The translations under genes were made by a program, and so were the position numbers. This document shows positions 28,221 to 32,732 of a stretch of DNA of 32,793 nucleotides, piece by piece (positions within the stretch are counted from its first letter, which is position 1; each line of letters starts with the position of its first letter). This DNA is from Bacteroidales bacterium (lineage in GTDB: Bacteria; Bacteroidota; Bacteroidia; Bacteroidales; UBA932). The stretch covers positions 1 through 32,793 of the forward strand of contig JAKSJP010000028.1 in NCBI GenBank assembly GCA_024398105.1. The letters are read 5' to 3'. Under the pieces are notes generated by a model that had not been told where the DNA came from, ran no database searches, and saw only the letters and a list, made by a program, of their open reading frames with translations.

Positions 28221-28676
28221 CTACTCCTCTACGACTTTTACTCTGAGTCTCTGGTCGACAAGTGTGACATACTTCTCGAGTGTCTCGTCATCCTTTGCAA
28301 CGACTGACACGATTGCAAGCGCACCCTTCTTGATCTCGCAGAACATCACTCTCATAGGAGAATCATCCTCGCAGAGGCATTCGAAGCCATAGGCCTTCTT
28401 ACCGGCAAACGGCCATACGGTAAGAGGATCCTGGTCCTCCGGATCATTCTCATCAAAGCCTACCATGTCCACATAATTGAGCATGGCCTGCTCCTGCGCA
28501 TCTCCGTCAGAAGGCATGTCGCCGACATAGATATCGATGTCAGAGATGTCAGCCTGAGCTTTCTCATCAGAAAGGTATGCAGCGAGATGTGTGATCTCTG
28601 TTCCGTCCGGATCCGGAGTTGTTTCAACAGATGACTTCCAGCCTTCAGGAAGCTCCATCTTGATAGAGTACTTCAT
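28221..28676 (-). CDS. Acidic cytoplasmic protein of unknown function
   Basis: A 151-residue protein I do not recognise. It is strongly acidic (for example SDISDIDIYVGDMPSDGD-like and DENDPEDQDP stretches) with no signal peptide or membrane segment. A beta-rich order is suggested by MKYSIKMELPEGW, ALAIVSVVAKDDE and QRLRVKVVEE, with a central turn WPFAGKKAYGFECLCEDD. ATG 28676 is used; a TTG two codons upstream is possible. It has its own promoter box and is convergent with maf. Confidence 0.65.
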   Translation of the reverse strand: MKYSIKMELPEGWKSSVETTPDPDGTEITHLAAYLSDEKAQADISDIDIYVGDMPSDGDAQEQAMLNYVDMVGFDENDPEDQDPLTVWPFAGKKAYGFECLCEDDSPMRVMFCEIKKGALAIVSVVAKDDETLEKYVTLVDQRLRVKVVEE

Positions 28677-28697
28677 TTTCAAGTGTTTTAATCAGTA

Positions 28698-28919: not shown

Positions 28920-28949
28920 TTGCCGATATATAAAAAAGCCGTACCTTTG
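28920..28949 (+). promoter_or_regulatory. Near-consensus Bacteroidota promoter of the orphan small transcript
   Basis: TTG at 28920-28922, exactly 19 bases of spacer, then TACCTTTG at 28942-28949. This is the best promoter match in the window. The transcript is expected to start near 28953-28956. Confidence 0.75.
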
Positions 28950-28962
28950 CAATGTAATCAAG

Positions 28963-29061
28963 ATGTGGTTCTCACAATCGAGATTACAGTGGTTATTAGT
29001 TTTAGTGTTATTAATTATGTGGTTAGATGAGCCTTCGCGCGTGATGCGTAAAAGCTCATAA
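28963..29061 (+). CDS. Possible 32-residue hydrophobic small protein
   Basis: An ATG about ten bases after the predicted transcript start opens 32 codons ending in TAA at 29059-29061. The product begins MWFSQSRLQ, has a central hydrophobic helix WLLVLVLLIMWL (residues 10-21), and ends in a polar tail with Arg and Lys (DEPSRVMRKSS). This is the shape of a single-span membrane microprotein or a type I toxin-like peptide. Against translation: seven of the leucines use TTA, which neighbouring genes avoid in favour of CTC, CTT and CTG, and the ORF overlaps both RNA stems. I cannot tell a translated gene from a chance frame in a structured RNA. Confidence 0.35.
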   Translation: MWFSQSRLQWLLVLVLLIMWLDEPSRVMRKSS

Positions 29062-29064
29062 AGT

Positions 29065-29100
29065 AAAAAAAGAAGACCGATCTGAAGGTCTTCTTTTTTT
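29065..29100. terminator. Strong bidirectional terminator
   Basis: A perfect 14-bp stem: seven A plus GAAGACC at 29065-29078 pairs with GGTCTTC plus seven T at 29087-29100, loop of 8. It ends the orphan plus-strand transcript, and on the minus strand it lies 40 bases past the stop of the beta-barrel gene, so it probably ends that operon too. Confidence 0.88.
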
Positions 29101-29139: not shown

Positions 29140-30420
29140 CTACCTGCCGAGGCTGGCCCTGATACCTAGATTAAGATTAAAGTTAAGAGGACGCTCCTTA
29201 TATATGTTGTCAACGTCGCTTCCATTCTTGAAATAATATGACACTCCCGGTTCCGCGAAAAGGCTGAATCTGTTCCAGAGACCGACTCTTGCACCTAAGG
29301 AAGAAGCAAACGACCACTGAAGACGGTCCTCGCTGAATTTCCTCTTTTCGCCATCATGGAGACCGTTGCCATGGTCATAGGCAGTGACAGATGAGCCCGA
29401 CAGTGCCTTCTCCCCCATTCCTCCGAACCTGGCATAAAGCCCGAAGCGATTCTTGTCGACCATGTGCCAGCTCAAGGCGAGCGGAATGCCCAGATAGTCA
29501 AGTTTCTGCTTGACAGTGTAGCTGCTGATCTCCGAGCCGGAAGTCATTTCAGACAGAAGTCGGCTGTACGAAAGGCCTGTCACGATTCCAAGCCTGTCCG
29601 CGAACATATATTCAACCTCAAGCGAATATCTTATCGGCTGGTGATGATGAGTCTCCGACCTGACATCATTATTGTCAAGATTGGCAAGGATCACTGAATT
29701 TGCTTCCGAGAAGAGCGGAACATCTTCCGGCCAGTCCGCAAAGTCGCCGTTCGACTTCGAGTCCATCATAGGCGAGAACTGGATGCGAGGTTCCGAATTC
29801 AGGAAAGCGCCGTATCCTCCGAACGACTCATTCTCCCCCTTCGACAGGCCACCGACCGAAGCCATGAGCGACAGCCTACGCTGTCTCGGCTTTATGTCCA
29901 TGGTACCTGAAACAGCGTCCCAGTACGTCCTGACCGCCTCTCCGTCATCGGTCCCACTGCGATCATCAGGATCGACAGTCTGCCCAGGTTCTTCGTCTTT
30001 GACATCAGCAGAAGGCTGATCCTGGACTTCCGCAATTTCGATTTCTGCAGTCAGTTCCATGACAATCAAGTCTTCTCCGGCCTGTACCTCGACAGCACGG
30101 ACGTTGACAGGCTGGCCATAGACAGGCTGGTCGTCTTCCAGGTCGTCTTCAAATGACGGGACGGTCTCAACGACTGAGAAATCAGCATTGGCGACAGCCC
30201 TGTCCTCGACTACCGGCTTATCGTTATTTCCCAGGTACAGCAGAGCTGCGACAGCAGCCGCAGCAGCGGCAGAGACAGCCGAAATCCAGAACAGAGGACG
30301 GACCCTCGAGCCGGTACCATGATCAAGACCGGCCTGTACGCCCTTCCAGAGGCCGTCAGGCTCGTTCACCTGGCAGTCACTCAGCGACTCGCGCATCTTA
30401 TCTGTCCAATCCTTGTTCAT
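29140..30420 (-). CDS. Membrane-anchored protein with C-terminal outer-membrane-type beta-barrel domain
   Basis: A 426-residue protein of unusual layout. Residues 1-41 are a cytoplasmic segment (DWTDKMRESLSDCQVNEPDGLW), similar in position to short anti-sigma regions. Residues ~42-64 are one membrane helix (PLFWISAVSAAAAAAVAALL). Residues ~65-170 are a very acidic, low-complexity linker. Residues ~260-426 look like an outer membrane beta-barrel domain (YSLEVEYMFADRLGIVTGLSYSRL broken into strands, LSWHMVDKNRFGLYARFGG, FSLFAEPGVSYYF, ending LNLGIRASLGR). Its start overlaps the ECF sigma gene by 23 bases, which strongly suggests coupled translation and a functional link, for example sensing envelope state and controlling the sigma factor. 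That role is inferred, not shown. Confidence 0.7.
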   Translation of the reverse strand: MNKDWTDKMRESLSDCQVNEPDGLWKGVQAGLDHGTGSRVRPLFWISAVSAAAAAAVAALLYLGNNDKPVVEDRAVANADFSVVETVPSFEDDLEDDQPVYGQPVNVRAVEVQAGEDLIVMELTAEIEIAEVQDQPSADVKDEEPGQTVDPDDRSGTDDGEAVRTYWDAVSGTMDIKPRQRRLSLMASVGGLSKGENESFGGYGAFLNSEPRIQFSPMMDSKSNGDFADWPEDVPLFSEANSVILANLDNNDVRSETHHHQPIRYSLEVEYMFADRLGIVTGLSYSRLLSEMTSGSEISSYTVKQKLDYLGIPLALSWHMVDKNRFGLYARFGGMGEKALSGSSVTAYDHGNGLHDGEKRKFSEDRLQWSFASSLGARVGLWNRFSLFAEPGVSYYFKNGSDVDNIYKERPLNFNLNLGIRASLGR

Positions 30421-30973
30421 TTCTGTATTGTTTTATCATACCGGCGAGCAGCGTCTTTGCTCTATGGAATTGTGATGTTGATGAATTTTCTCTGATGCCG
30501 AGCATCTCGGCGATTTCCTTGTGGCTTTTCTGTTCGAAGACGAAAAGGTTCAGCACGGTCCTGCACCCAGGCGGAAGTTCCTCGACCATGGACTGAAGCA
30601 CCTGCGGAGGTATACCATCCACATCCGGGTCCTCAGTCTCCGGAATATCCGGCAAAGGGTCGTCGAGGCTGAGCAGCGGATGCTTGCTGGATCTGCGAAG
30701 GAACATCAGCGCCTCGTTCACCACGATGCGTGACATCCAGCCCCGCAGCGAGCCTGATCCCTTATATTCAAACTTGTCGAGATTAGAGAATATCTTGATG
30801 AAGGCTTCCTGAAGGACGTCCTTTAATTCGTCATCGTCCGGGACGTATCGGCGGCACACAGCTGAAAGATACCGCACGTTATTGTCATAGATTGACTTTA
30901 CGGCTGCGGTATCTCCACTTTTTGCCTTACGCACCAGCTGGGCTTCAGCGTCTTTCGGGAAAAACCTTATCAC
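30398..30973 (-). CDS. ECF RNA polymerase sigma factor
   Basis: A 191-residue sigma-70 family factor of the extracytoplasmic-function type. Region 2 covers about residues 28-95 (YLSAVCRRYVPDDDELKDVL, EAFIKIFSNLDKFEY, LRGWMSRIVVNEALMFLRR). An acidic linker DDPLPDIPETEDPDVDG follows, and region 4 is at about 128-180 (LPPGCRTVLNLFVFEQKSHKEIAEMLGI, then SQFHRAKTLL). No region 3 is present. It starts 13 bases after the NigD-like gene and overlaps the beta-barrel gene by 23 bases. It probably directs transcription of envelope genes, and perhaps its own operon; regulon unknown. Confidence 0.92.
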   Translation of the reverse strand: MIRFFPKDAEAQLVRKAKSGDTAAVKSIYDNNVRYLSAVCRRYVPDDDELKDVLQEAFIKIFSNLDKFEYKGSGSLRGWMSRIVVNEALMFLRRSSKHPLLSLDDPLPDIPETEDPDVDGIPPQVLQSMVEELPPGCRTVLNLFVFEQKSHKEIAEMLGIRENSSTSQFHRAKTLLAGMIKQYRNEQGLDR

Positions 30974-30986
30974 CTAGTAGATGTAC

Positions 30987-31682
30987 TTACTTCTCGCTTC
31001 TTGTGCAATAGTCGAACGAGATGGTCTTGTCAGCGTTGAAGCCTCTGTACCTGACTGTAAGCTTGACTGTCTTGCCCTCTGTGTCAGGAAGAGACGAAAG
31101 ATCGAAGGCTGCGACGCCAGCGCGCTGCTGTACGTTTGTATAGTCATTCTTTGCATCATGTCTGAGCTCGACTGTGTAAGGATCTTCAGGATCTACGCCT
31201 GTCACGACATTCACATAGTGTGATATTCCGATATTTCCGAAGTAAGCAGTGAAGCTGATGGTAAGGAAGCCGTCCTCAACGACTGTCAGCCAGCTGTTGT
31301 TGATCTCGATGCCATCCTTTCCATACTTGGCTGCATCTGCCTCAGAGGAGCCCTCGGTTGCGACCATGGCCTTTGTGAGTACAGGCTCAAGCATATGGAC
31401 CTTGACTGCCTTGTCAAACGGAGCAGGATCCTGGTTTACTTCTTCACAGTACGCCAAGGCTCTGACAGGGGTATTGTTTGATACACTCTTGTAGTTGACA
31501 GGAAGAAGAGTTGTCTTCTCGTCAAGCTGGAAGTAGGTCAAGCCTTTGTCAGTCTTCCTGATTGTCACCACCATGTTAGGATTGCACCATCCTTCAGGGA
31601 CATCGGTGCTGTCGATCGAGCATGATGGAAGTATTACAGCAGCGCCAAGAGCTGCAACGATAAGTTTTGCGATTCTTTTCAT
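30987..31682 (-). CDS. NigD-like lipoprotein
   Basis: A 231-residue lipoprotein. The signal (MKRIAKLIVAALGAAVILPSC) ends in the lipobox LPSC with Cys21. The mature part resembles the NigD-like family of Bacteroidales: an N-terminal OB-type region (MVVTIRKTDKGLTYFQLDEKTTLLPVN) and a C-terminal beta-sandwich (WLTVVEDGFLTISFTAYFG, then TVELRHDAKND and TVKLTVRYRGF). Function is unknown; the name comes from the nigrescin bacteriocin cluster and does not imply bacteriocin activity. It is the first gene of the sigma factor operon. No TAnnTTTG box was found in the 100 bases upstream. Confidence 0.75.
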   Translation of the reverse strand: MKRIAKLIVAALGAAVILPSCSIDSTDVPEGWCNPNMVVTIRKTDKGLTYFQLDEKTTLLPVNYKSVSNNTPVRALAYCEEVNQDPAPFDKAVKVHMLEPVLTKAMVATEGSSEADAAKYGKDGIEINNSWLTVVEDGFLTISFTAYFGNIGISHYVNVVTGVDPEDPYTVELRHDAKNDYTNVQQRAGVAAFDLSSLPDTEGKTVKLTVRYRGFNADKTISFDYCTRSEK

Positions 31683-31756
31683 AAATATCCTTTGTTATTT
31701 TTGTTATTCTGTTGCTTAAATGCAGCCGATGTGGAAATACTGCAGGAAAAAAACAA

Positions 31757-31781
31757 AAAAGAGACCTGGACGGCCTCTTTT
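31757..31781 (-). terminator. Intrinsic terminator of the CPBP protease gene
   Basis: AAAAGAGACC and GGCCTCTTTT form a 10-bp stem with one mismatch and a 5-base loop. Read on the minus strand it is followed by a long T-rich run, just past the protease stop at 31784. Confidence 0.75.
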
Positions 31782-31783
31782 CA

Positions 31784-32680
31784 TCAGATTTCTACAGTTG
31801 AGCTCATGATCCGTTCCTTAGAGACATACGTATCATAATAATATAGGGCTGCGATCAGGATTCCGAGAGTGATGAAACCGGCAAATCCTGAGAAGCCGAC
31901 AGTCAGGTCACTTCCACCCAAGGTCAGGAGATAGACGATACCGACCAGACCGTTTACGACACCATGCATCGCAGCACCAAGTATGACCGAACCGGTCTTG
32001 AGCACGAAATACATGATCAGGCATCCGGTAAGGATACAGAGCACGGACATCATGAAGACGCCAGCAACAGGATGCTGATGATAGATGTGGCCGAAAAGGA
32101 TCATCGGAGCATGCCAGATTCCATTGAAGAAACCGATGAAGAGCGCAACGTAGGCGAACTTATGTCCCTTGAGCAAAGTCATGAGATATCCCCTCCACAC
32201 GAATTCCTCTCCAAGCGAGAACAAGGTGCTGATCGTCAGGCCTCCTATCAGTCCACGTATCAGAGTGCCGCCGACAACAGCATAAGGAGGCATGGAGCTA
32301 AGACGAAGTCTGATCTGATCCGCCACTTCCTCATCTACACCCTTCAATGCCATTAGCTGCTCAGGACCATAATTGAAGGTAATTCCTGGGAGAAGTGCAC
32401 TGACCGGAACCACCATTATTATGGCAATGACCATCAGGGCTATGCCTGCGCCCCAGGTCAATGAAGGATTGAATTTAAGGAGCTTGAAGGCCGAGAAATC
32501 GTTCGTCCTCTTCTGGACGAAGAAAGTCGAAAGCAGCGGAACCGCCATGAATGCCACTTCAAGAAGAACCACATACAATCTTTTCGACATGACAAAATCA
32601 CTGAAAAGACCCATTGCAACAGTGTAAAGGATCCAGGAAAGTATGCAGATGACAATTGAGAAGCGTAGAGCTTTCTTCAT
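31784..32680 (-). CDS. CPBP family intramembrane glutamic endopeptidase
   Basis: A 298-residue multi-span membrane protease of the CPBP/Abi (CAAX protease-like) family. Motif 1 is SLGEEFVWRGYL with the catalytic Glu158-Glu159 and Arg163. Motif 2 is FFNGIWHAPMI with His190, and the third conserved His lies in AMHGVVNGLVG. About seven to eight hydrophobic segments are visible, with a soluble loop near residues 102-135. The start is ATG 32680 (MKKALRF); a TTG at 32704 falls in the upstream terminator tail and is rejected. It lies downstream of tRNA-Cys on the same strand but is separated by a terminator. Substrate unknown. Confidence 0.87.
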   Translation of the reverse strand: MKKALRFSIVICILSWILYTVAMGLFSDFVMSKRLYVVLLEVAFMAVPLLSTFFVQKRTNDFSAFKLLKFNPSLTWGAGIALMVIAIIMVVPVSALLPGITFNYGPEQLMALKGVDEEVADQIRLRLSSMPPYAVVGGTLIRGLIGGLTISTLFSLGEEFVWRGYLMTLLKGHKFAYVALFIGFFNGIWHAPMILFGHIYHQHPVAGVFMMSVLCILTGCLIMYFVLKTGSVILGAAMHGVVNGLVGIVYLLTLGGSDLTVGFSGFAGFITLGILIAALYYYDTYVSKERIMSSTVEI

Positions 32681-32702
32681 CAGTGGGATTATTATAGTTG
32701 TC

Positions 32703-32732
32703 AAAAAAAGCCCCGAGATTCTCCTCGGAGCT
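32703..32732 (-). terminator. Terminator downstream of tRNA-Cys
   Basis: AGCCCCGAG and CTCGGAGCT form a 9-bp stem with one mismatch. On the minus strand it is followed by seven T (the A run at 32703-32709), so it ends the tRNA transcript. Confidence 0.75.

Follow-up and report, generated by a model that had tools for sequence, protein, structure and literature searches.

A very probable small non-coding RNA gene with a nearly invariant core, from an apparently undescribed family in Candidatus Cryptobacteroides

Among the small RNAs (sRNAs) of Bacteroidales, FopS of Bacteroides thetaiotaomicron and GibS (Rfam model RF04182) are the closest points of comparison for the locus presented here. In the part of PMC11697453 on which we draw, which speaks of Bacteroidaceae, the FopS RNAs carry their seed at the RNA 5′ end and bind the protein RbpB through their 5′ portion.

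The locus occupies positions 28920-29100 of the window, that is, the whole 32,793-nt contig JAKSJP010000028.1 (assembly GCA_024398105.1). Judged by comparison with its relatives, it is very probably the gene of a small non-coding RNA and not of a small protein, and it appears to represent an undescribed sRNA family that is widespread in Candidatus Cryptobacteroides; no description of a small or non-coding RNA of Cryptobacteroides was found in the open-licence literature, nor any mention there of a 16-letter stretch of the core, whether written as RNA or as DNA. Taken as a whole, we hold it moderately probable that this is a non-coding sRNA whose core serves as a trans-acting antisense seed on mRNA leaders. 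Cryptobacteroides and its relatives are found in gut and rumen metagenome assemblies, and the combination of a fixed core with swappable 5′ modules offers a clear test of what keeps an sRNA sequence fixed.

Layout of the locus and its alternative 5′ ends

The window's genome comprises 2.43 Mb in 48 contigs, and its 23 matches to the SusC family TIGR04056 fit a member of the Bacteroidota. The initial annotation had described a promoter (TTG, a 19-base spacer and TACCTTTG), two stems and a 14-bp terminator between genes of the opposite strand; the promoter reads exactly as given, the stems and the terminator are all present within 28953-29100, and the flanking ORFs (28221-28682 and 29140-30420) both lie on the minus strand (Table 1).

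Table 1. Features of the sRNA locus in window coordinates
Feature	Position	Strand	Description
Promoter, Bacteroidota type	28920-28949	+	TTG (28920-28922), 19-base spacer, TACCTTTG (28942-28949)
Stem 1	28953-28988	+	Variable 5′ hairpin; outer part TGTAATC/GATTACA (28953-28959/28982-28988), inner part TGTG-GTTCT-CACA
Core	28990-29026	+	Nearly invariant 37 nt free of C, at most weakly folded: TGGTTATTAGTTTTAGTGTTATTAATTATGTGGTTAG
Stem 2	29027-29059	+	Variable 3′ hairpin, ATGAGC/GCTCAT (29027-29032/29054-29059); loop contains GTGA
Terminator	29065-29100	+	Separate 14-bp hairpin (29065-29078/29087-29100) with A-run and T-run
32-codon ORF	28963-29061	+	Frame from the initial annotation, rejected as a gene

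The 5′ end of the RNA is inferred to lie at or near the start of stem 1, and in the window's genome the sRNA would be transcribed as a molecule of roughly 105-150 nt. In many relatives a T-run directly follows stem 2, so that stem 2 is itself the terminator; the separate terminator of the window, also present in the loci L002-L004, may double for the convergent minus-strand ORF at 29140-30420. That ORF, of 426 aa and with no NCBIfam match, belongs to a minus-strand run behind the sRNA (29140-32704) that further holds an ECF-type sigma factor (30398-30973), a NigD-like lipoprotein (30987-31682) and a weakly CAAX-protease-like protein (31784-32704). The pattern TTG-N19-TAnnTTTG has a single occurrence in the window, compared with a mean of 0.15 in shuffles (14 of 100 with at least one), and this uniqueness is weak evidence if taken alone; the box TACCTTTG by itself occurs three times in the window, and a sigma70-style promoter scan listed no site at 28920-29100.

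Of the 136 distinct copies pooled from related genomes and loci (see below), 118 carry TAnnTTTG no more than 60 nt before the core; 111 of these have a stem-1 region, and in seven (L034, L035, L070, L125, L126, L152 and L155) the core comes directly behind the box. Other copies begin differently: in L073, L102 and L164 the usual box is replaced by TGGCAC-N5-TTGC, which we take to be the sigma54 consensus, 14 nt upstream of the core, and in six loci (L015, L044, L086, L122, L154 and L156) about 8 nt separate the end of a tRNA-Cys gene from the core, an arrangement that may reflect an sRNA derived from a tRNA trailer. In copies with a bare promoter, a tRNA-Cys gene or a sigma54-like promoter, the core thus probably lies at or near the RNA 5′ end; stem 1 would be an exchangeable 5′ cap, and copies that lack it would have a bare 5′ end or one made by cutting the RNA out of the tRNA-Cys transcript. 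The recurrent neighbours in 120 loci are maf-like (27), kbl-like (26), tdh-like (25) and valS-like (21) genes, names read from the sequence and confirmed by NCBIfam for the window's Maf alone.

Conservation of the core and covariation of the stems

A BLAST search with a 211-base query against 60 relatives found the core in 29 of the 36 congeners besides the window's genome, and the BLAST tally of 33/61 includes two genomes (G005 and G025) that match in the promoter part alone. The seven congeners without the core are of varied completeness (G005 91%, G007 61%, G010 63%, G020 80%, G025 58%, G032 91% and G035 72%), and the core is absent from the 24 genomes of other genera in this search, save for G039, which matches in part, over 40 nt. 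BLAST listed 36 copies, from which the one in G039 (L031) was left out as a doubtful relative; in the remaining 35, where a few pairs at contig ends (L006/L032, the L020 palindrome) may each represent a single copy, a 28-nt core segment is identical in 34, and L030 is one base short. An exact 27-mer scan of genome contigs returned at least 120 stretches. In the pooled 136 copies a 31-nt core is identical in 133, a figure to be read with the fact that 101 of the 136 come from loci picked by exact core match; among the 35 not so chosen it is identical in 33, L031 being one exception.

A 19-nt core pattern, with up to three mismatches allowed, was searched in the window's genome and 120 others of the genus; it matches 104 of these 121, with 199 matches in total; among the matches listed there is one exact core copy in the window's genome and at most three in congeners, counts that come from fragmented assemblies in which copies may be missed. 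None of the 60 inexact matches among those listed for the 121 genomes was a full-length sRNA by covariance search. In the order at large, the R1 covariance search recovered the family in 3 of 393 genomes, all Cryptobacteroides and the window's own among them, under stricter filters and with few candidates scored per genome. The three-mismatch pattern search gave matches in 45 of 393 genomes of the order; outside the genus these are about as many as in the backward control, and the arrangement of promoter and hairpin is absent from the 30 loci of this search that were inspected. Neither the 20-nt match in L306 nor the 17-nt matches in L485-L488 have a clear promoter, hairpin and T-run. Three single loci may be recorded here: L031:1034-1128, in a genome of another family of the order (G039), holds TTATTAGTTTTAGGTTATTAATTATG, near the core, scores 27 bits in the covariance search (E 0.0011) and, with no promoter box seen, is possibly a distant relative; L058 carries, near position 716, a second copy with one core base changed beside the exact copy; and L020:1459-1649 contains two facing sRNA copies, a palindrome at a contig end that is perhaps an assembly artefact.

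On these alignments, the main feature of the family is the fixed stretch between the stems, and the flanking hairpins vary freely. The 150-nt strand folds at -46.1 kcal/mol, compared with -27.6 ± 3.3 kcal/mol for its shuffles (z -5.6), the z-score being -2.35 once the terminator is left out. The check on covariation in relatives for which the initial annotation had asked bore out the stems. In alignment A1, made of 27 sequences with the two stems defined from a single sequence, pairing is kept in 91.3% of cells, compared with 84.4% when shuffled and 35-50% when slid; changes on both sides are seen in 7 of 12 pairs (shuffles 2.8 ± 1.1, with 1 of 500 as high) and, for stem 1, in 6 of 7; and the covariation score is 0.252, compared with 0.141 in shuffles, none of 500 of which reach it. 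The number of further pair types in A1 is not above that of shuffles (13 and 11.6; 113/500), and RNAalifold did not recover stem 1 from the sequence alignment. In the larger set, where the helix was picked per sequence and the pair tables therefore lean towards pairing, a stem-1 helix of at least 5 bp is possible in 109 of the 111 copies that have the region (shuffled letters give a mean of 38/111), with 38 different outer arm pairs; by the same per-sequence rule, stem 2 can form at least 5 bp in 136 of 136 copies, a figure that has no shuffled control.

The locus thus has its own promoter, a covarying structure and a terminator hairpin, the marks of an intergenic sRNA at the level of sequence evidence alone; by the same comparisons the promoter, the stems and the terminator exceed what chance would give, unlike the ORF. 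The regulatory-RNA half of the initial annotation is supported by a conserved promoter, covarying stems, a terminator, a nearly invariant core and the lack of an Rfam match: Rfam 15 returned no matches at the gathering threshold over the whole window, and for four relatives nothing over the sRNA up to E 1.

Likely pairing with mRNA leaders and the competing explanations

Base pairing in trans with mRNA leaders is the likely action of the sRNA, as far as can be predicted from complementarity and the placing of the core. The core would act as an antisense seed, and its pairing, on the start codon or immediately 5′ of it, would block ribosome entry by analogy with FopS, on a target set different from that of FopS, with xylB and other genes as candidates. 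The position of the core at the probable 5′ end in several architectures is the place of the seed in FopS, as given in the part of PMC11697453 used here, and counts in favour of pairing. Two perfect complements stand out: in L349 (G458), 22 nt complementary to the core lie 1 nt before the ATG of xylB, and in L361 (G469), the last bases of a 24-nt complement fall within the first ATG of a lipoprotein-like gene, which leaves 4 nt to a second ATG. Under a Markov model of leaders with 2000 genes assumed per genome, the number of perfect matches expected in all leaders of the 121 genomes is 0.001-0.002 at a length of 21 nt and 0.0003-0.0006 at 22 nt. As a set, 28 xylB-type leaders (30 were fetched and 2 could not be placed) give a mild signal, their predicted pairing being stronger with the core than with its dinucleotide shuffles (z -2.75, equalled by 2 of 200), the xylB leader of the window's own genome being unremarkable (-14.5 kcal/mol, mean -14.0). 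By these predictions, xylB and the lipoprotein-like gene of L361 are targets as candidates only.

Other searches for targets gave nothing of this kind. Complementarity to the core is not raised in 698 leaders of genes near sRNA copies (z +0.9), a k-mer test on them was not significant, and 31 groups of orthologous neighbours yielded no convincing target (lowest z -2.09). G032, which is 91% complete, has five near-complements and no exact core among the matches listed, which counts against pairing. Of 60 near-complements of the core (at most three mismatches), 36 have a start codon no more than 20 nt away, compared with 8 of 28 for a reversed pattern and 16 of 30 for a dinucleotide-shuffled one (30 of 65 and 30 of 56 control matches were fetched). 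Many of the 36 leader genes, 31 of which were scanned, are sugar-related, as are about half of the 16 leader genes of the shuffled control (by reading) and none of the 8 of the reversed control. Because the shuffled control falls in leaders about as often and, judged by reading alone, resembles the true set in its portion of sugar genes, neither location nor function is specific, and an enrichment of sugar genes, striking at first, was dropped.

susC genes were likewise set aside as targets. An early z of -3.0 (-70 to -10, the best of 25 windows, 60 shuffles) gave way, in preset windows on the 18 susC leaders of the window's genome (G000), to -0.75 for -60 to +15 (48 of 200 shuffles as good) and -1.34 for -60 to 0 (18 of 200). 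As a positive control, the 5′ part of a FopS-like RNA against 30 of the 44 susC leaders of G095 gave z -7.7 for -60 to +15 (0 of 200) and -1.5 for -60 to 0, with values of -0.8 and -0.9 in other stretches; the start codons of two leaders in the susC test (L202 and L483) look wrongly chosen.

The fixed core could be explained equally well by protein binding, and it is best described as a proposed pairing (seed) or protein-binding region. The corresponding rival, an sRNA that binds or titrates an RNA-binding protein through the core, with pairing not its main action, we regard as a serious contender of clearly lower probability. Contiguous fixed stretches of 37 nt are long for a seed, and the leaders near sRNA copies are without excess complementarity; both speak for binding, as does the precedent of RbpB on FopS. 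The RRM_1 domain of RbpB type (PF00076), however, was found in G013 and not in G000, G016, G061 or G404, so that the known candidate partner is mostly absent (missing in four of five genus members tested), and perfect leader complements of 22 and 24 nt are hard to account for by protein binding alone. That the core might be a recombination or phage attachment site and no RNA element is very improbable. Genes for tRNAs or sRNAs often serve phages as attachment sites, and the 25-nt core does occur in three IMG/VR contigs (L166, L167 and L168), in the first of which the sRNA copy starts just behind an integrase gene; yet the stems covary, promoter and terminator are conserved across species, and the copies in L167, which encodes a portal protein, and L168 lie directly behind a gene for an NAD-dependent DNA ligase, each with its own hairpins. 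L307 holds the core's first 20 nt with a terminator-like hairpin behind them, and two of its large proteins have no match in PHROG; in the viral stretch L306:7368-10600, which also holds these 20 nt, a reverse transcriptase gene (phrog_1423) lies about 1.7 kb upstream.

The probability left to a 32-aa small membrane protein, alone or in a dual-function RNA, is next to nil. The frame that the initial annotation had put forward does exist, with an ATG and 32 codons, and its hydrophobic part WLLVLVLLIMWL is fixed since the core is fixed; in 85 of the 136 copies the frame ends at codon 13 counted from Trp, a shared end point that results from the fixed core together with the conserved opening bases of stem 2. 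Comparing frame and start codons over the 136 copies nonetheless ruled the microprotein out: an in-frame ATG is present in 12 copies (with frames of 22-48 codons), no ATG, GTG or TTG stands in frame upstream of the hydrophobic segment in 103, and the upstream part of the ORF overlaps the freely varying stem 1. A type I toxin-like small membrane protein would have a conserved ORF with a start codon, which is not what these counts show, and NCBIfam has no match for the 32-aa ORF. Of the synonymous-biased change that had been suggested as a sign of coding, a single change that would be synonymous is seen, in one copy (L058). The dual-function RNA that had also been entertained is unlikely because the segment is fixed at the DNA level and start codons are not kept; the frame merely reads the fixed U-rich core, which should not be annotated as a hydrophobic peptide.

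An extended version of the preferred reading, an antisense sRNA acting through its core, would make it a genus-wide master sRNA with a 37-nt seed and at least four kinds of 5′ end that silences catabolic mRNAs, mostly without RbpB, and whose seed, once captured by phages, redirects host metabolism; this we consider unlikely.

Comparison with FopS, GibS and Spot 42

The FopS-like sequences used here come from matches to the GibS model and a motif scan. A search of 149 genomes of the order with RF04182 gave matches in 23 genomes, none over the cut-off; FopS-like sRNAs are thus seen in 20 of 132 sampled genera, with 3-6 model matches in six genomes. The 22 sequences inspected (L169-L189 among them) share the pattern (G/A)TGTTTTTCAT(A/G)GTATTAGA(T/A)TTAAGGTTA, nearly all with a hairpin and a T-run, and are taken as FopS-like by analogy with what the portion of PMC11697453 used here describes and with general features of FopS RNAs. 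The FopS-like motif GTATTAGATTTAAGGTTAA also occurs in 42 viral stretches (L264-L305), many with a hairpin behind it and three (L284, L285 and L305) with no evident hairpin.

That the sRNA should be the Cryptobacteroides member of the FopS/GibS family, repressing susC translation, is quite unlikely, and membership was dropped on sequence tests and susC target tests. The layout of copies without stem 1 (promoter, conserved 5′ stretch, hairpin terminator), the presence of both kinds of RNA in viral contigs, a 14/17 match between TATTAGTTTTAGTGTTA and TATTAGATTTAAGGTTA, and near-complements before two susC-type genes (L219, by blastp to susC, and L223, by reading) speak for it. However, the 14/17 match is not significant, since 239 of 2000 shuffles reach its score. 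An nhmmer profile built from 56 FopS-like sequences, a few perhaps false members, does not tell the sRNA from shuffles: it matches 44 of 136 copies, at a median of 2.45 bits, and 167 of 500 shuffles, at a median of 3.4 bits. The GibS model gives 25.1 bits (cut-off 115, E 0.12), which is chance level because the surely unrelated MicC gets 26.6 on the same stretch; with Prevotella-2 at 19.4 bits, all these Rfam matches are far below their cut-offs. The susC leaders respond to the FopS-like query in G095 and not to the core in G000, and, under the stricter filters, the complete family turned up in a single genus. Neither an R1/R1′ seed at the 5′ end nor, by prediction, a targeting of susC start regions was found.

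Spot 42-type sRNAs regulate carbon use, a role that the new sRNA would share if xylB-like catabolic leaders are true targets; no sequence relation is claimed. GibS is likewise a Bacteroidales sRNA with a terminator, and it aligns weakly over the core and the hairpins. Within the part of PMC11697453 used here, FopS too has a Bacteroidota promoter, a hairpin terminator, paralogous copies and a presence in phages, and its fixed seed-like 5′ stretch is shared by the sRNA copies without stem 1; by comparison with the 12-15 copies per genome of FopS, one to three copies of the new sRNA are seen in fragmented assemblies, usually with an extra 5′ stem, no susC signal and no significant sequence similarity. 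On these comparisons, the sRNA is built like FopS, with a kinship for which no significant similarity speaks and with susC probably not aimed at as a class; if the two are unrelated, fixed-seed sRNAs would seem to have more than one origin in Bacteroidales.
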